The notes beneath the pieces are model-generated. The model was not told where the DNA came from and did no database searches. It saw nothing but the letters and a program-made list of their open reading frames with translations. A stretch of 64,000 nucleotides of DNA from Bifidobacterium breve (lineage in GTDB: Bacteria; Actinomycetota; Acidimicrobiia; Acidimicrobiales; Acidimicrobilacustridaceae). The position numbers and the translations under genes were made by a program. Shown here one piece after another: positions 2,864-32,355 of the stretch; position 1 is the first letter of the stretch; every line of letters begins with the position of its first letter. The stretch spans positions 1 through 64,000 of the forward strand of contig CAMCTY010000002.1 of the NCBI GenBank assembly GCA_945878725.1, given 5' to 3'.

Positions 2864-4213
2864 TCACTCTGCCGGAATGTCAGCTCCGGAACGGGGTGAA
2901 CGGTCCCGATAATCCTTGGCGCCGCCCTCTTCGGGCTCAACCTCGAGGACCAGACCATCGATGCCGATCACCCGGATTCGGTCAAGTTCCTCGATCGGCG
3001 TCGCCCGGTTTGTCGACGCCCGCCAGAGCGCTTCGCGGATCTGCACGACCCCGTCGGGATTGACCGCCGAAACGGCACGACCGATTTCACCGATCATCCA
3101 TTCGCGCCCGATTGTCGGTGTCGAGAAACGGGTTCGAACCATTGACGGCATGCCCCCGAGGAATGCCAGCAGTACCGAGGCCACGCCGACCAGCAGCGTG
3201 ACCCACGAAAGCGAGAGTCCGTCGAAGAGTGTGAATGAACCGATCACGTACAGAACCACGCCGGCACCGGTCCAGAACCTCGGGATACCGGTCTGGACGT
3301 CAATCGCAAACGCGATCATCGCTACAAAGATCAATGCCACGGCCCACCAGTTCGTCGGCAATACCGCAAGGCCATAGCCGGAGAGAATCAGCGACACCGC
3401 GCCGACAACACCGGCAACACCGACACCGGCGGTAAACAACTCAAAGATGATGAGCGCAAGGCCGATGGTGAGCAACAAATAGGAAACTGCCGGACTCGCA
3501 ACCGTGTGCATCAACTGTGCGACCAGCGAGATCTGCCCAAAGCGAACCTGCGTGAGCGGCTCCCGACGAGTTTCGCCATTTTCTGCTGTGATTTCCCGGG
3601 TTTTCACACCCGGTGAGTTCACGAGGTAATCGCCAACCGTCGGCGCATCGAGTGTCGTGATACCGAGATCCGCTGCTTCTTGATTACTCACGGTGCTGTC
3701 GATAAGCGGGGCCAGCCGGTTCATGTCGAGACCATCAATGAGTGGCTCGCCGGCGTTGCCGAGTCGCGTTCCCGGGGCCATGCCGACCTGTGCGGCTGCA
3801 CCGACGAACTGTGCGGCAGGTCCGGTGAAGCGCGAGCCCGACGGGCCGACCCAGACGCCGATGGGGACGGTCGAACTCTGCATCTGACGAAGAAGATCAC
3901 TGAGGACGGTGTCACTCACCACGACACCAGTGGAATTGACCTGAAGTACGAGCGAAAGAGCGCCTTCGTTCTCAGCCTTCGTGATCGATGACGAGATGAA
4001 ATCAGCAAGGACCGGATCAATGAGTCCGCTTACCTTGATGATGGAGACGAAGCCGGCGTCGTCGGCAATGGCTGTCGCGGCCGAGGTCACCCTGGCTTCG
4101 GGAGTTGAGGCCTCTTGGGCCATTGCACTTCCGGCTGAACCGAGAAGGCCGAGAGCAACACCTACGAGCGCCAGAACGGCGAGCACCGCACTGAACTTCG
4201 ACCGCTTGAGCAA
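2864..4213 (-). CDS. NfeD family membrane protein with ClpP-like domain (likely inactive protease)
   Basis: This 449-residue protein starts with TTG at 4213, with GGAGG 7 nt upstream. In order it has a signal peptide (to about residue 32), a ClpP-class domain (about 50-215), four to five membrane helices (about 240-370) and a C-terminal NfeD OB-fold domain. Long-form NfeD proteins pair with SPFH/stomatin proteins in membrane quality control. The nucleophile region reads GSRFTGPAA where active members have GARAASAG, so the catalytic Ser seems to be replaced by Gly, although MAPGT further on is conserved. No stomatin gene is adjacent. Confidence 0.85.
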   Translation of the reverse strand: MLKRSKFSAVLAVLALVGVALGLLGSAGSAMAQEASTPEARVTSAATAIADDAGFVSIIKVSGLIDPVLADFISSSITKAENEGALSLVLQVNSTGVVVSDTVLSDLLRQMQSSTVPIGVWVGPSGSRFTGPAAQFVGAAAQVGMAPGTRLGNAGEPLIDGLDMNRLAPLIDSTVSNQEAADLGITTLDAPTVGDYLVNSPGVKTREITAENGETRREPLTQVRFGQISLVAQLMHTVASPAVSYLLLTIGLALIIFELFTAGVGVAGVVGAVSLILSGYGLAVLPTNWWAVALIFVAMIAFAIDVQTGIPRFWTGAGVVLYVIGSFTLFDGLSLSWVTLLVGVASVLLAFLGGMPSMVRTRFSTPTIGREWMIGEIGRAVSAVNPDGVVQIREALWRASTNRATPIEELDRIRVIGIDGLVLEVEPEEGGAKDYRDRSPRSGADIPAE

Positions 4214-27374: not shown

Positions 27375-27551
27375 ATGAACGAATGGTTGATTGTCGGAAT
27401 CATTGTCGCCCTCATCTTCGGCGGATCCCAGCTCCCGAAGCTTGCCCGCTCCCTCGGCTCAGCGAAGGGCGAGTTCGAGAAGGGCCTCAAAGACGGCGAG
27501 GCCAAGTCCGGCAAGGCCGACGAGCCGAAGGCCGAATCCACCGAATCCTGA
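27375..27551 (+). CDS. tatA: Sec-independent translocase protein TatA/E
   Basis: This small gene encodes 58 residues. It starts MNEWLIVGIIVALIFGGSQL, with one transmembrane helix, followed by the amphipathic helix PKLARSLGSAKGEFEKG and a Lys/Glu-rich acidic tail. The F-G-x-x-x-L-P hinge is clear. AGGAG lies 9 nt before the ATG. It forms the pore-building part of the twin-arginine pathway; at least one likely Tat substrate lies 1.2 kb away. No tatC is in the window. Confidence 0.92.
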   Translation: MNEWLIVGIIVALIFGGSQLPKLARSLGSAKGEFEKGLKDGEAKSGKADEPKAESTES

Positions 27552-27596
27552 GCACCCAGCTCACCAGATCGTCGAACTGACCGGCCTCAGGGTCGG

Positions 27597-28475
27597 TCAG
27601 TTTCGCGTATGAGCCAACTTCTCGACCCGCTCGACGAGGCGGGGCGCATCAATCCGTTCCGCAAACGACGCCAGTGCATCGGTCGGTCCCGTCCAGAACA
27701 GCTCGTCGATGTTTTCCATCGTCGGCGCCGCATAGTCGATCGTGGCTACCCGTCGGAAAAGCATCGCCAGCTCGCGCTGGTCGGCGAGAGTTGCTGCGAG
27801 TTTCGCCGCGCCGCGCACAGTGACATCCCAATCAGCAGCATCGTCGGGGATGTTTTCGATATGGCCGTAGCGGGCCAGAACGGTTGACGCCGACTTTGCT
27901 CCCCACCCGGCTAGGCCGGGGAATCCGTCGGCGCTGTCGCCCATGAGTCCGAGGTAATCGGGAATGGATTCGGGGGGAACCCCGAACTTCTCGATCACGC
28001 CATCGTGATCGATCATGAGTCCCTTGCGGCGATCGAACTGCACGACGCGCGTTCCGACAACGCACTGCCCGAGATCTTTGTCTGGCGTACAGATGATGAC
28101 GCGCTCGACGCGCTCGTCAGCCGCCGCTATCACCGACGCCGCCCCCATTGCGTCGTCGGCCTCGTGTTCAACCATCCGGAACACCTTGAATCCGACCGCT
28201 TCGAGCACGTCCTCAAGCAGCCAGAACTGATCAAGCAACACCGGTTCGGTTCCCTCGCCAGTCTTGTAGCCGTCGTAGAGATCGTTGCGAAATGATTGGA
28301 CCACATGATCGGTTGCTATCCCGACATGAGTCGCGCCTTCCTTGAGTAATCCGAGCATCGACATGACCACACCGCGTGTCGCCGCCACCTCGAGCCCGTC
28401 GGAGTTAATGCGGGACGGCAGTGCGAAATGATGACGGAAGAGTTCGTAGGTTCCGTCGACCAGATGGATCTGCAT
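27597..28475 (-). CDS. 5'-3' exonuclease (PolI N-terminal/FEN-like)
   Basis: From the ATG at 28475 the 292-residue protein starts MQIHLVDGTYELFRHHF. It has the acidic metal site (EHEADDAMG; CTPDKDLGQ) of PIN-like 5' nucleases and the DNA-binding helix-hairpin-helix GLMGDSADGFPGLAGWGAKSA. It would remove RNA primers or flaps, like the N-terminal domain of DNA polymerase I. The longer frame upstream overlaps the divergent PqqD-like gene's promoter and was not used. Confidence 0.92.
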   Translation of the reverse strand: MQIHLVDGTYELFRHHFALPSRINSDGLEVAATRGVVMSMLGLLKEGATHVGIATDHVVQSFRNDLYDGYKTGEGTEPVLLDQFWLLEDVLEAVGFKVFRMVEHEADDAMGAASVIAAADERVERVIICTPDKDLGQCVVGTRVVQFDRRKGLMIDHDGVIEKFGVPPESIPDYLGLMGDSADGFPGLAGWGAKSASTVLARYGHIENIPDDAADWDVTVRGAAKLAATLADQRELAMLFRRVATIDYAAPTMENIDELFWTGPTDALASFAERIDAPRLVERVEKLAHTRN

Positions 28476-28591
28476 GTCCAAGCCTCCCACTTCGGCGACC
28501 GCCGGGCTGCCGGTCAGATCGACCAGAAACAGAATTTCTTGCCCACTCAGGGTTTCCATGCTGGACTCTGCGAAACCCAAGGAGCCTTTCA

Positions 28592-29389
28592 ATGCCGAAT
28601 CCCGAAGCCCGCAATGATCTCGTAATCACCGATCGTCCCGGTGGCGCAGACACTGGCGTTCTGGTTTACGACCCGAAGACCGACACCGGCCATGTTCTCG
28701 ACGGCACTGCCGCACTCGTGCTCGCCGCCTGCGACGGCACCCGCGATCTTGCCGAACTCGCTGAACATGTTGAGGCTCGCTCCGAGAACTTCTCCGACAA
28801 GCTTTCCGTCGACGTGGCGCTTCAGCAGTTGAACGATGCCGGCTTGCTCGCCGCGCCGCTCCCGACGTCGTCCGGGCTCTCACGACGCAAGATGATTCGC
28901 ACAATGGCGATCGGGGCTGCCGGCATCGCGGCGCTTCCGCTTATCGAGTCGATCTCCAACGCCCGTCTGGCTGATGCACAACCGGCGCTCGTCATCGACC
29001 CAAAGACGGCTTCGACCACCCCCGGTGTTCCGGTGGCCATCACCCTCACCGCCCAGAACGTCTCCAGCCCGGCCGATCTTGTGTTTTGGCCGGTGGCACA
29101 GCCCTCCAACGGCACGGTCACGATCATCGGAGACGTGGCGACTTACACGCCGAACGCCGGCTTTATCGGGACGGACTCGTTCCCCTACACCGGCGGCGAG
29201 TGCGTCGTGGCCATCGGCAACATTCCATACCCACCCCCCTCCTTGATCTGTCCTATCGGCGAGTTCGTCTACAACGGAGCCACTCCGGATCTTGTCACCA
29301 TCGAGGTGGCCGCAGCCCCCGAGACCACCACGACTTCGACGAGCACAACCGCCGCAGTCCTGCCGACGGCGCCCACGTTCACCGGCTGA
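28592..29389 (+). CDS. PqqD-like domain, Tat signal and Ig-like domain fusion protein
   Basis: This 265-residue protein has an unusual order of parts. Residues 20-90 match a PqqD-like winged helix (GVLVYDPKTDTGHVLDGTA, CDGTRDLAELAEHV, LQQLNDAGLL), the fold used as RiPP recognition element. Residues 97-120 are a Tat-type signal (SRRKM then AIGAAGIAALPL) lying in mid-protein. Residues 130-240 look like a Big_9/cadherin-like Ig fold (YTPNAGFIGTDSFPYT) with two Cys. A Thr-rich linker and PTAPTFTG end the chain. The ATG has AAGGAG 8 nt upstream. A 2OG-Fe(II) oxygenase starts 13 bp downstream. Confidence 0.8.
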   Translation: MPNPEARNDLVITDRPGGADTGVLVYDPKTDTGHVLDGTAALVLAACDGTRDLAELAEHVEARSENFSDKLSVDVALQQLNDAGLLAAPLPTSSGLSRRKMIRTMAIGAAGIAALPLIESISNARLADAQPALVIDPKTASTTPGVPVAITLTAQNVSSPADLVFWPVAQPSNGTVTIIGDVATYTPNAGFIGTDSFPYTGGECVVAIGNIPYPPPSLICPIGEFVYNGATPDLVTIEVAAAPETTTTSTSTTAAVLPTAPTFTG

Positions 29390-29402
29390 TCGACGTCACC
29401 TG

Positions 29403-30074
29403 ATGGATGACGCCGATCGCGCCGCTCTCGCCCAACTGGCGCGAGACCATCGGAATCGATCTCTTGAACAAGCAGAGGTTTTGCCCTCTCCTTATGTGAA
29501 GGTCAACGGGTTCCTTCCACAAGCCGATCACGACGAACTCTTCAAGGCGATCGTTGCGGCTGAATCCGAGTACGTCTCCAACGCCATGGACGGCCGTCGG
29601 GCTCTCGTGCTGTATCCCGCTCCTGCGATTGCGGAATTATTTGCTGCTCAAATTCTGCGAGTTGCGCCGAGTCTTGTGGAGCCACTCGGGTTTCGCACGG
29701 AGGATCTTGTTGCGCCAACCGCACGCGATCTCGCCGTCACCGCGAGCGGACACGGCGACTTCTTTGGCCCCCATCGCGACGACACTGGCCCGCTCGCCAC
29801 TCCCGAAACCCAGGCCCGGCGGGTAAGCCTCGCTTTCCATCTCAATTCCGTACCCAAACGCTTTGAGGGCGGCGAGTTACGCCTGTACGACTATCGGGTC
29901 TTCAACGACGAGTCAGTCCCGGCCAACACGTTCGCAGCTCTTGAACCCGAGGACAACACCCTCATCGCGTTCTTGTCGAGCACGCGCCACGATGTTGCGA
30001 GTGTGCGGTTTGAGGACAACGCGTTCGCAGGCCGGCGCTTTTCGATAACCGGGAGTTTCTCGATCCCGAGCTGA
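29403..30074 (+). CDS. 2OG-Fe(II) oxygenase, prolyl-hydroxylase-like
   Basis: The 223-residue protein has the iron-binding triad H124-x-D126 (GPHRDD) and H196 (TRHD), and the 2-oxoglutarate-binding Arg in GRRFSITG near residue 212. FEGGELRLYD is the typical core strand. This is the SM-20/prolyl 4-hydroxylase type fold. It follows the PqqD/Tat protein by 13 bp, suggesting that the neighbour or its tail is the substrate. The real substrate is not shown by the sequence. Confidence 0.87.
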   Translation: MDDADRAALAQLARDHRNRSLEQAEVLPSPYVKVNGFLPQADHDELFKAIVAAESEYVSNAMDGRRALVLYPAPAIAELFAAQILRVAPSLVEPLGFRTEDLVAPTARDLAVTASGHGDFFGPHRDDTGPLATPETQARRVSLAFHLNSVPKRFEGGELRLYDYRVFNDESVPANTFAALEPEDNTLIAFLSSTRHDVASVRFEDNAFAGRRFSITGSFSIPS

Positions 30075-30131
30075 CGTTGGCCAGCGTGGCAAGAACCCGG
30101 CTCGGGTTCCCGGCCGACTTAGGCTCGGATC

Positions 30132-30914
30132 ATGACTGATCAGGCGGCACGTCTCAAGAATCTTCGCAACTGGAACCTCGGAGTCGGGGTGTTGCATCTC
30201 ATTCAGGGCGTCGTGATCCTTGCGATCAGCGCATCGTTCTCAATCGCGGTTGTGGCCATCGTGCAGACCGGACCTCCGGGAGCACCGGGTTCGCTCGACG
30301 GATTCCAGAAGTTCTTCGATTTCAGTTTCCCCATCGCCATCGCGGCGTTCTTATTCCTCGCGGCCGGTGACCATCTGCTGATGACGGTTCCCCGTATCCG
30401 CAACTGGTACGAGGCCAACTTGCTCGAAGGCCGCAACTACGCACGATGGATCGAATACTCCGTAAGCGCGTCGATCATGATGCTGCTCATCGGCCTGCTC
30501 ACCGGCATCAACAACCTGTACGCGATGATCGGGATCTTCGGAGTCAATGCCGCCATGATCCTGTTCGGGCTTGTCATGGAGCAGGTCAACCGCGATCGCG
30601 AGAACGTGAACTGGTGGCCGTTCATCCTCGGCTGCGTCGTCGGAATTGTTCCGTGGATTGCCGTGACCATTTCGCTCATCACCGCAACCGTTTACGACCA
30701 ACCCGATGGCGACGGCGTACCGGTTTTCGTCTACTTCATCTACGTCTCGCTCTTCCTGCTCTTCAACTGCTTCGCACTTAACCAGTGGCTGCAGTACCGC
30801 AATAAGGGCAAGTTCTCCGATTATCTCTATGGCGAAAAGGTGTACCTCGTGCTCAGCCTTGTGGCGAAGAGCGCACTCGCCTGGCAGATCTTCGCCGGCA
30901 CTCTGTCTAGCTAG
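30132..30914 (+). CDS. Heliorhodopsin
   Basis: A 260-residue, seven-helix protein. It closely matches the family landmarks: RWIEYSVSASIMM with the counterion Glu at 108, FGVNAAMILFG, GIVPWI, SLFLLFNCFALNQWLQY, and SLVAKSALAWQIFAGTL with the retinal Schiff-base Lys at 246. Heliorhodopsins have an inverted topology (N-terminus inside), a slow photocycle and no known ion pumping. The gene follows the oxygenase by 57 bp on the same strand. It converges on an ATP-grasp gene, whose stop it overlaps by 4 bp. Confidence 0.96.
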   Translation: MTDQAARLKNLRNWNLGVGVLHLIQGVVILAISASFSIAVVAIVQTGPPGAPGSLDGFQKFFDFSFPIAIAAFLFLAAGDHLLMTVPRIRNWYEANLLEGRNYARWIEYSVSASIMMLLIGLLTGINNLYAMIGIFGVNAAMILFGLVMEQVNRDRENVNWWPFILGCVVGIVPWIAVTISLITATVYDQPDGDGVPVFVYFIYVSLFLLFNCFALNQWLQYRNKGKFSDYLYGEKVYLVLSLVAKSALAWQIFAGTLSS

Positions 30915-31828
30915 AGACGCCGGACGGCAGCGTCGACGAATCGTTGCGCCGAGCCCGGATCGACTTCAAAGAAGAAACTCGGCTCGGCGAGCTCGGCCTC
31001 GAGAAGGGCGGGAGTGTCATCATCGAGTCGAACGATGTCGTAGCGGCCATAGAGCAATTCGTCGGAAGACCCAAGCCAACCTCGCTCGATTGCAATTTGG
31101 CGCACCGCTGAATGCGCCTGCAGCACCAGCGATCTTTCGTCCTCGGCCAGCACTGCAGGTGTGATCACTTCGCGGTACTCGCCTCCCTTGAGCTGACCCT
31201 CGTCACCCAACAGCGGGCCCTTGCGAAACGAATGCGAGATCGAGCCGTCGAACACAACTGTTCCGATCTCACCCGAAGAATCGACTGACTCCGCGAACGG
31301 TTGGATCATCACGGTGAGGTTCTCGGCGAGTATCTGCACCCCGAGATTGAGAGCCGCCGGAGACCCCGTCACGAAACGGCCGGTTAAACGACTACCCGCG
31401 GATGTCACCGGCTTCACGATGACCATGGCCGAGGGATTTGTGTCCAACGCTCGTTCGAGTTCATCCGCATCATCGGCATAGGTGGTCGGAACAACCGCAA
31501 CATCACGGATCGCGAGTTCGGCCAAATAATGCTTGTCGAGATTCCACGCGATGAGTGAGGCCGAATTGTGGAAGTTCGCCAGTGCGGACCGATCGCGAAG
31601 CCATTGCATGAATTCGGCAAGTCGCTTCGGGTAATTCCACGGGCTGCGCACGATCACGAGATCGAACGACTCCCAGTCGACCGACGCGTCCTCCCATGGC
31701 ACGTAATGACACGACACCCCAGCACCGAGGAACGCTGAGTCCTGAAGCTCACGATCTGGATCACCGTGCACCATTGCTGTTTCTGCCGTCGTCACAAGAG
31801 CAATGCGCGGCGACCCGATGTCGGTCAC
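30911..31828 (-). CDS. ATP-grasp domain protein of unknown substrate
   Basis: From the GTG at 31828 the protein has 305 residues. It shows an N-terminal Rossmann-like part (PRIALVTTAE; FDLVIVRSPWNYP), the ATP-grasp nucleotide site (MVIVKPVTSAGSRLTGRF) and the metal-binding end YDIVRLDDDTPALLEAELAEPSFFF. Members ligate an amine to a carboxylate, as in glutathione synthase. The GTG overlaps the SnoaL-like stop by 4 bp (GTGA), which decided the start; ATG 31849 is an alternative. It converges on the heliorhodopsin gene. Confidence 0.8.
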   Translation of the reverse strand: MTDIGSPRIALVTTAETAMVHGDPDRELQDSAFLGAGVSCHYVPWEDASVDWESFDLVIVRSPWNYPKRLAEFMQWLRDRSALANFHNSASLIAWNLDKHYLAELAIRDVAVVPTTYADDADELERALDTNPSAMVIVKPVTSAGSRLTGRFVTGSPAALNLGVQILAENLTVMIQPFAESVDSSGEIGTVVFDGSISHSFRKGPLLGDEGQLKGGEYREVITPAVLAEDERSLVLQAHSAVRQIAIERGWLGSSDELLYGRYDIVRLDDDTPALLEAELAEPSFFFEVDPGSAQRFVDAAVRRL

Positions 31829-32355
31829 TTCTCCCAGAACGGTGCCCATGTGGGCCAGGACTCGGGAACAGTGCCTCGACCGTCGTGATTTTCGGGCCAG
31901 TTTGCCGGCGCCTGCGAGAGGGGATTGGTCGCAGCTTGCTCGCCAAACCAGAGTTCGTGAATCCGGCGCACGAAGTACCACGTTCCCTCGCGCCGTTCAT
32001 ACGTGTCCCGATAGAGGATCGCCTGGTGAATCCAGCGATCGCCGTCTTGGATCTGCCCGTGGCAGTAGACCGAACCGATCGCGTGATCCGCGTCGAGTAG
32101 ATCGATCGCGTGAGTTCCTACGTTCAGAATCGACACACCGATACCGCTCAACGATTCCGCGAACGACTCGCGCAGCGCCACGCGCCCGAACGTGTCACGA
32201 CCAACCCTCACGTCGTCAACGAACAGCCCGACGAGCATGTCGAGATCGCGAGAATCGACGGCCACCGCATAGTGGGCGGCCAGTTGTCGGATCTGTTCGT
32301 GGGCCCAGAGTTTCTCGACCGCATCGCCGGGGACACCGGTCTCGTTCTGTGACAT
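31825..32355 (-). CDS. SnoaL-like / NTF2-fold protein
   Basis: A 176-residue protein with the alpha+beta barrel pattern of NTF2-like enzymes. An N-terminal helix (EQIRQLAAHYAVAVDSRDLDML) is followed by GLFVDDVRVG, and later HCHGQI-like strand VYCHGQIQDGDRW and YERREGTWYFVRR. Such proteins include small dehydratases and isomerases and carrier-like binders. It is coupled to the ATP-grasp gene. ATG 32355 is used instead of a longer start. Confidence 0.75.
   Translation of the reverse strand: MSQNETGVPGDAVEKLWAHEQIRQLAAHYAVAVDSRDLDMLVGLFVDDVRVGRDTFGRVALRESFAESLSGIGVSILNVGTHAIDLLDADHAIGSVYCHGQIQDGDRWIHQAILYRDTYERREGTWYFVRRIHELWFGEQAATNPLSQAPANWPENHDGRGTVPESWPTWAPFWEK

Follow-up and report, generated by a model that had tools for sequence, protein, structure and literature searches.

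The window analysed here is a stretch of 64,000 nucleotides from contig CAMCTY010000002.1, part of a draft genome of 2.26 Mb (G000; G- and L-numbers are used as labels for the compared genomes and loci). At positions 28592–30914, its plus strand carries three genes: P1 (28592–29389), which encodes a PqqD-like domain joined to a twin-arginine translocation (Tat) signal and an immunoglobulin-like (Ig) domain; P2 (29403–30074), which encodes a prolyl-4-hydroxylase-like 2-oxoglutarate (2OG)-Fe(II) oxygenase; and HeR (30132–30914), which encodes a heliorhodopsin. The intergenic gaps are 13 bp between P1 and P2 and 57 bp between P2 and HeR. An earlier note on this DNA had proposed a possible heliorhodopsin operon with this layout; its coordinates agree exactly with those found here, and its identification of each of the three genes is borne out by the matches given below. 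The evidence points to P1 and P2 as a candidate two-gene unit for protein modification and export, next to which HeR is probably a resident neighbour.

Domains of P1, P2 and HeR

P1 encodes 265 amino acids and is preceded by a Shine–Dalgarno-like AAGGAG (28579–28584, plus strand). Its start at 28592 is common to the copy in genome G226, and the two proteins are 90–93% identical (range across aligners). Residues 24–86 (28661–28849) match the PqqD family of Pfam, a winged helix resembling the recognition elements (RREs) of ribosomally synthesised and post-translationally modified peptides (RiPPs) (PF05402, E 1e-5; 26.2 bits, the cut-off being 23.4); residues 1–93 scanned alone give E 9.8e-7 and 29.5 bits. 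A twin-arginine signal, SRRKMIRTMAIGAAGIAALPLIESISNARLADA (28880–28978), follows, with a probable cleavage site at ADA/QP. As read by eye, the motif SRRKMIRTMAIGAAG...LADA/QP sits between the PqqD and Ig domains and includes an S-R-R-x motif, a hydrophobic stretch and an AxA site. The remainder consists of a Big_9 Ig-like domain (residues 134–200, 28991–29191; PF17963, 2.1e-8), also recognised in the structural model and in its Foldseek matches, and a Thr/Pro-rich tail ending in PTFTG directly before the stop codon (29372–29389). The model of P1 has a mean predicted local distance difference test (pLDDT) score of 68.6, with values of 83–93 in the Ig blocks and about 63–77 in the PqqD blocks. 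Foldseek titles for this model, among the matches listed, were mostly antibodies, phage collar proteins, cohesins and adhesins. Thirteen proteins of this type, hereafter PqqD-Tat proteins, can be aligned over the PqqD domain, an RR pair that is invariant in all of them, and a P-x-[IV]-x-[ST]-[IV]-like motif past the Tat core. Their exported parts vary: Ig, (PA)n, (APT)n, or rich in Gly, Cys or Lys.

P2 encodes 223 amino acids and matches PF13640 in Pfam (1.2e-11). The residues of its iron triad, H124 (29772–29774), D126 (29778–29780) and H196 (29988–29990), all on the plus strand, are invariant across 11 aligned P2-type sequences, P2 among them. An 11-domain P2-type profile searched against the PDB found prolyl hydroxylases first, with 6t8m, a Dictyostelium prolyl hydroxylase (PHD), at 1.9e-13, followed by 4iw3, PHD2 entries, the prolyl 4-hydroxylase 6iuq and Tpa1. 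The P2 model (mean pLDDT 90.6) is closest to 4j25 (P. putida prolyl 4-hydroxylase, P4H), 6t8m, Tpa1 and PHD2, with E 6.4e-11 and a template modelling score of about 0.6, and an algal P4H with a (Ser-Pro)5 peptide is match 50 among those listed. P2 has both the HxD...H triad and the double-stranded β-helix fold by which prolyl 4-hydroxylases are defined, and its profile and modelled fold match it to prolyl hydroxylases as a P4H-like 2OG-Fe(II) enzyme. A scan of viral contigs with P2 gave one weak locus. The third gene encodes a heliorhodopsin of 260 amino acids (PF18761, 2.9e-90; NF038020, 1.3e-86).

Recurrence of the P1–P2 pair

P2-type genes were found in 6 of 37 genomes of the family; four of these six (G000, G226, G302 and G313) are among the 21 genomes of the genus, and all four keep the order P1–P2–HeR. 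At the junction between HeR and the upstream exonuclease gene, P1 and P2 are present or absent together: both in these four genomes (in G313 the exonuclease gene is off the contig), neither in 13, in which HeR directly adjoins the exonuclease gene, and the junction is unreadable in the other four (G180, G298, G305 and G306). Among the 13, HeR is split over two contigs in G310 and lacks its first 44 residues at this place in G311. P2 was not found genome-wide in the other 17 genus genomes, several of which are under 90% complete; the genome-wide search for P1 covered the five genus genomes of the order samples.

Beyond the genus, a profile search of 296 genomes of the order found 11 PqqD-Tat places in eight genomes at E<1e-25 and eight P2-type places in six genomes at E<1e-20, E-values that are partly by construction, as most of these proteins are members of the profiles. 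Six of the eight strong P2-type places have one of the 11 PqqD-Tat places no more than 2 kb away; for genomes of about 3 Mb, simple arithmetic gives a chance of about 1e-4 or less that a random place would be so near. The same eight P2-type places were found with P2 alone as query. The seventh, in G084, lies on a contig that starts inside a PTQA-repeat frame, just ahead of an HprK_rel_A-like gene and the 2OG gene, and the eighth, in G044, belongs to a cluster with YcaO (8e-78) and TfuA (3e-44). Four weaker P2 places (E 1e-7 to 1e-12, in G236, G153, G122 and G205) had no PqqD-Tat match nearby. In G322, outside the 296-genome sample, a PqqD-Tat protein with a (PA)n tail adjoins a 680-aa protein with a P2-type domain, the N-terminal part of which gave no match; in G318, a contig is cut off within a (PA)n...SPRYTG tail that immediately precedes a protein similar to that of G322. 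One peptide pattern searched in public genome contigs (83 stretches, 30 loci) yielded one more pair, in a Kouleothrix-assigned bin (L136; Chloroflexota), with a PqqD-Tat protein bearing a Thr/Pro-rich tail beside an HprK_rel_A-like and 2OG fusion. On this genomic evidence, the P1–P2 link looks real.

Three further observations concern these gene families. The G044 cluster (L081:7975–11615), in which the P2-type 2OG gene stands beside TfuA, YcaO and a 106-aa protein without a Pfam match, is a candidate RiPP cluster. Large fusions of glycosyltransferase families 2 and 25 stand beside PqqD-Tat paralogues of G226 and G180 (L070:2925–5465 and L071:1435–3471), where no 2OG gene was seen; they are perhaps a second modification route for PqqD-Tat proteins. 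PqqD-Tat proteins occur in several phyla, at L142, L144 (Okeania), L145, L148 (Anaerolineae, Chloroflexi) and L158 (Planctomycetota), with Cys-rich, Gly-rich, Thr/Pro-rich or Lys-rich exported parts; the N-terminal module is therefore wider than the 2OG partnership.

Several clusters of the relatives also contain glycosyltransferase genes. HPAT (PF23452) was matched above cut-off in G322 (L106, 9.7e-8) and G084 (L078, 1.4e-6), and just under it in G057 (L076, 23.6 bits against 23.9). Nucleotid_trans (PF03407) was matched in G322 (L106, 7.8e-21) and G057 (L076, 1.6e-16), and the GlcNAc family (PF11397) in G057, G084, G239 and G322, at up to 3e-57; O-FucT matches in these clusters were below cut-off. 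PF03407 is taken here to cover GT77, and PF11397 to cover a Skp1-type enzyme. Within the 296 genomes of the order, HPAT was found in only two, G084 and G239, both with P2-type and PqqD-Tat genes, in a search that did not list the borderline G057 domain. PF11397 was found in four (G322, G057, G084 and G239) of the 10 genomes that have P2-type enzymes, against 1 of 38 others (G018). It was not found in any of 12 genus genomes tested, G000 included, and the sugar step is therefore unsupported in the genus. The exported parts of PqqD-Tat proteins have a median proline content of 13% beside a 2OG gene (n=9) against 7% without one (n=18; Mann–Whitney p 8e-4, uncorrected for relatedness).

In plants, HPAT arabinosylates hydroxyproline and RRA/XEG113 (GT77) extend the chain, and in protists the hydroxyproline glycan of Skp1 is begun by a GlcNAc transferase, as described in PMC8012813 and PMC8724618. 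The same order is predicted for the relatives, from proline repeats to a P4H-type enzyme and then to transferases of the HPAT, Nucleotid_trans and GlcNAc families; as the cargo there has long tails of the (PA)n, (APT)n or PT-rich kind, a hydroxyproline-rich glycoprotein is the probable product. Unlike the plant and protist systems, this one would be bacterial, cytoplasmic, PqqD-guided and Tat-exported, the homology of the transferases is at family level, and searches of G000 for HPAT and PF11397 found no match to either.

A putative modification and export unit

The explanation given a little over an even chance here is that P1 and P2 form a two-gene unit for protein modification and export, in which PqqD serves as an inbuilt docking module that allows prolines to be hydroxylated ahead of Tat export. 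Acting as an RRE that is part of the substrate, the PqqD domain at the N-terminus of P1 would dock P1 to P2 in the cytoplasm, and P2 would then hydroxylate one or more prolines in the exportable part. P1 would leave via Tat, with signal peptidase removing the PqqD and Tat portion at ADA/QP, and the Ig domain, the Thr/Pro tail and the C-terminal PTFTG would be displayed outside. The docking step is proposed because of the analogy with RREs, and the proline hydroxylation step because of the fold of P2 and the proline-rich cargo of the relatives. Given that HPAT and PF11397 were not found in G000, hydroxylation without that sugar is predicted for the window pair. Docking before Tat export, as already suggested in the earlier note, remains an inference, one to which the recurrence of PqqD-Tat/P2-type pairs in other genera and in the Kouleothrix-assigned bin, several of them with glycosyltransferases alongside, now lends weight. 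More broadly, and rather tentatively, at somewhat short of an even chance, PqqD-Tat proteins may represent a bacterial counterpart of the plant extensin pathway, with PqqD-docked proline-rich cargo, a cytoplasmic prolyl hydroxylase, hydroxyproline glycosyltransferases and Tat; the P1–P2 pair of the window would then be a minimal version, with a PxFTG sorting tag.

RRE systems offer the closest precedent for the docking step: in these, a ribosomally made product is led to the enzyme that modifies it by a PqqD-like winged helix (PMC7470986). The RRE of RiPP systems, whether part of an enzyme or a free-standing protein, binds a short leader, whereas here it is fused to the putative substrate, a Tat-exported protein. 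A RiPP pathway would have a short precursor with a leader that is cleaved after modification; the proposed substrate here, P1, is a 265-aa exported Ig protein, and the gaps within the trio are 13 and 57 bp (the listing threshold for reading frames was 60 aa). RRE–glycosyltransferase fusions are presented as possible new clusters in PMC7470986, and the words 'hydroxylase' and '2-oxoglutarate' are absent from its main text.

A number of observations weigh against this interpretation. The PqqD assignment is modest in score and unconfirmed by structure search: the fold suggested earlier has support from sequence and from the β-β-β-helix-helix-helix order, as expected for PqqD, in the medium-confidence PqqD part of the P1 model, but Foldseek with the whole model gave no PqqD among the best 50 matches listed, and the PqqD profile gave 5sxy among solved structures at an E of only 0.71. 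P1 has no proline repeat, with 18 prolines in the 136 residues past the predicted cleavage site, and the glycoprotein evidence comes from relatives only, as HPAT and PF11397 were not found in G000. The partnership itself is less firmly counted than six of eight places would imply, since these rest on related loci (G000/G226, G239 twice and G057 twice) and thus on fewer than six independent events. With P1 alone as query, partners were found in G000, G226 and G057, at four of the eight places; the PqqD-Tat genes of G239 were missed, one of them having been seen beside its 2OG gene and then added to the profile. The G239 HPAT lies beside PF11397 matches on another contig than the pairs of that genome, the PqqD-Tat gene of G084 ends another contig than its 2OG gene, and the PqqD part of the G318 protein is off its contig. 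PqqD-Tat genes without a P2-type neighbour in the stretch seen occur in G226 (C42) and G180 (C18 and C64), beside glycosyltransferase fusions, and further ones encode Gly-, Cys- or Lys-rich tails (some of the contigs concerned are short); docking therefore cannot be oxygenase-specific. Finally, another substrate of P2 is possible, because the crystal structure of its closest solved relative from bacteria (4iw3) includes EF-Tu.

The glycosyltransferase fusions beside PqqD-Tat genes without 2OG also bear on an alternative in which the PqqD domain of P1 recruits another partner, either a glycosyltransferase or an HprK_rel_A-type protein, and P2 modifies the Ig domain or Thr/Ser instead of proline. 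HprK_rel_A (TIGR04352) matches were obtained for five of six cluster proteins tested, two of them from G239, all below cut-off, whereas the G322 protein had no such match and no HprK-like match was found among the seven window genes scanned. Most P2 relatives with solved structures are prolyl hydroxylases and the cargo beside 2OG genes is richer in proline, making this alternative unlikely. The HPr-rel-A system (TIGR04352/TIGR04353) is a further known system that resembles the pair in part. P1 scores 27 bits against TIGR04353 in NCBIfam, below the cut-off of 35, and related clusters match TIGR04352, one of them with an NTP_transf_5 gene. This system is defined by TIGR04353 above cut-off together with a TIGR04352 kinase, and no TIGR04352-type kinase was found among the seven window genes scanned. 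The pair differs from HPr-rel-A in joining PqqD to Tat cargo and in having a prolyl-hydroxylase-like partner, and none of the scores reaches its curated cut-off.

It is distinctly improbable that P2 hydroxylates a housekeeping protein, such as EF-Tu or a ribosomal protein, and lies beside P1 incidentally. The nearest folds do include the P. putida P4H, solved with EF-Tu, and the yeast protein Tpa1, which modifies Rps23, according to the structure titles. A housekeeping modification would be odd for an enzyme not found in 17 of 21 genus genomes (several under 90% complete), and at the site P1 and P2 occur either jointly or not at all, in a partnership that recurs elsewhere.

The C-terminal end of P1 (29372–29389) belongs to a set of similar ends across the genome. 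As a DNA pattern, P-x-[FY]-T-G followed by a stop codon occurs 20 times in G000, against once for a reversed control, and exceeded the control in all eight genomes tested (G226 31/3, G302 19/1, G313 21/3, G180 36/2, G322 30/3, G053 11/4 and G155 14/3). Among 84 genomes of the order, a clear excess was confined to G005 (17/1) and the two sampled members of the family. The window and the other stretches of G000 that were read contain 19 in-frame ends, three of them on stop-to-stop frames of 18–33 codons. The carriers are large proteins (e.g. L211–L223 in G000) and are probably secreted. Ten of them scanned with Pfam included one with Beta_helix, four with Chlam_PMP repeats (one below cut-off) and two with ubiquitin-like domains, and a choice-of-anchor Q domain was found in both of the two tested with NCBIfam. 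These anchor domains suggest a sorting or anchoring signal, and the tag is possibly such a signal of the window's family and G005, perhaps an unnamed one; among the matches listed, no description of it was found in the open-licence literature. P1 would be one member of this tagged surface set. The ubiquitin-like carriers are tandem genes in G000 (C14, L219:2391–3086 and 3109–3801), with first 75 or so residues of the ubiquitin family (PF00240, 3.5e-28 and 7.6e-31) and extensions ending in PNFTG and PGFTG. The idea that the PxFTG end is a private target of P2 was dropped, as many other proteins carry the motif, which is also found in genus genomes that lack P2.

Heliorhodopsin and the history of the site

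HeR is present in all 21 genus genomes and in 83 of 298 genomes of the order. Recurrence of the P1–P2–HeR trio in relatives, for which the earlier note had asked, was found in 4 of the 21 genus genomes. On the upstream side, the fixed neighbour is a 5'-3' exonuclease-like gene (27597–28478, minus strand; PF02739, 1.4e-29), and downstream an ATP-grasp, D-cycloserine-synthetase-like gene (30911–31849, minus strand; NF058666, 3.3e-62; 210 bits, under the 360-bit cut-off) is convergent with HeR and is kept in those genus loci that are readable. Synteny of the flanking genes extends through the genus wherever they can be read, and the lasting adjacency of P1/P2 and HeR is therefore no independent evidence of shared function. 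A TatA/Hcf106-family gene of 58 aa also lies near P1 (27375–27551, plus strand; PF02416, 2.1e-11). Such genes are found near one PqqD-Tat cluster of G239 as well, and also in G053, which has no P1/P2 at the site (L080:4342–4506, L089:9770–9979).

P1 and P2 are more diverged than their flanks in each of the four compared pairs of genomes carrying them. Between G302 and G313, identity is 88% for HeR, 62% for P1 and 60% for P2; between G000 and G302 it is 73% for HeR, 41–44% for P1 and 36% for P2. A tree of the flanking genes shows the four trio genomes in scattered positions, with G302 in a group with G053 and G299, neither of which has the cassette. A single recent gain of the cassette is unsupported, given this scatter and divergence; ancestral presence followed by losses, or transfer into the same site, would both fit.

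HeR has a promoter-like element of its own. TAGGCT (30120–30125, plus strand), a −10-like sequence 6 nt ahead of its ATG, represents a TAnnnT element present 6–7 nt before the ATG in all 17 genus HeR genes with a readable start, the four trio copies included (the start being taken as the nearest in-frame ATG). For comparison, TAnnnT is found at 5–8 nt in 13 of 52 called gene starts of the window and at 0.27% of random window positions. Its distance corresponds to the spacing of a leaderless start, and the conservation of the element suggests that HeR can probably be transcribed without P1 and P2. Read-through from P2 into HeR may also occur, given that only about 32 bp separate the two genes in G302 and G313. 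Two HeR genes are readable outside the genus; TAnnnT is present in that of G265 and absent from that of G322. A −35/−10 consensus scan of 27500–31900 gave no plus-strand promoter before HeR, and its yield of one promoter-like and four terminator-like sites was about that of shuffled sequences. HeR is on other contigs than the P2-type genes in G057, G084, G239, G322 and G044 (for four of the six P2-type places paired with PqqD-Tat genes), and was not found in G318.

Heliorhodopsin operons have been described with glutamine synthetase, photolyase and ABC transporter genes, and HeR likewise stands beside an enzyme gene on the same strand. Heliorhodopsins have been reported to act on operon partners, among them glutamine synthetase and photolyase (PMC9529153 and PMC9769723). 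PqqD and 2OG oxygenases are outside the ten neighbour groups given in PMC11109279, and the words 'PqqD' and 'oxygenase' are absent from the main text of PMC8612252. Unlike the known operons, the HeR of the window has its own promoter-like element. A light-regulated operon, in which P1, P2 and HeR share a transcript and HeR acts as controller or sensor for the modification unit, would be consistent with the common strand and short gaps (those of G302 and G313 included), the order kept in four genomes, the action of published heliorhodopsins on operon partners and the consensus scan, but is the least probable of the readings, given the presence of HeR in 21 of 21 genus genomes against 4 of 21 for P2, its place next to the exonuclease gene without P1/P2 in 13 genomes, its conserved TAnnnT, its separation from the pair by contig in G057, G084, G239 and G322, and a synteny, found in the genus wherever readable, that leaves gene order saying little. 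The inclusion of HeR in an operon remained unconfirmed, and the proposed tie of light or retinal sensing to the modification is not supported. HeR as a functional partner was rejected as the leading view because of the synteny and the promoter-like element; it is probably a bystander.

No description of the arrangement of P1 and P2 was found in the open-licence literature, among the matches listed, in line with the initial impression that no such system was known. Prolyl hydroxylation on proteins is best known from plants and animals. If the two-gene reading is correct, an RRE-type docking domain would lie inside a large exported substrate and be tied to prolyl hydroxylation before Tat export, and hydroxyproline-glycoprotein chemistry, mainly a matter of plants and protists, would have a bacterial form with a clear gene set. 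The case also warns against inferring heliorhodopsin function from neighbours that come and go. The P1–P2 pair is, in itself, a simple and testable two-gene system.

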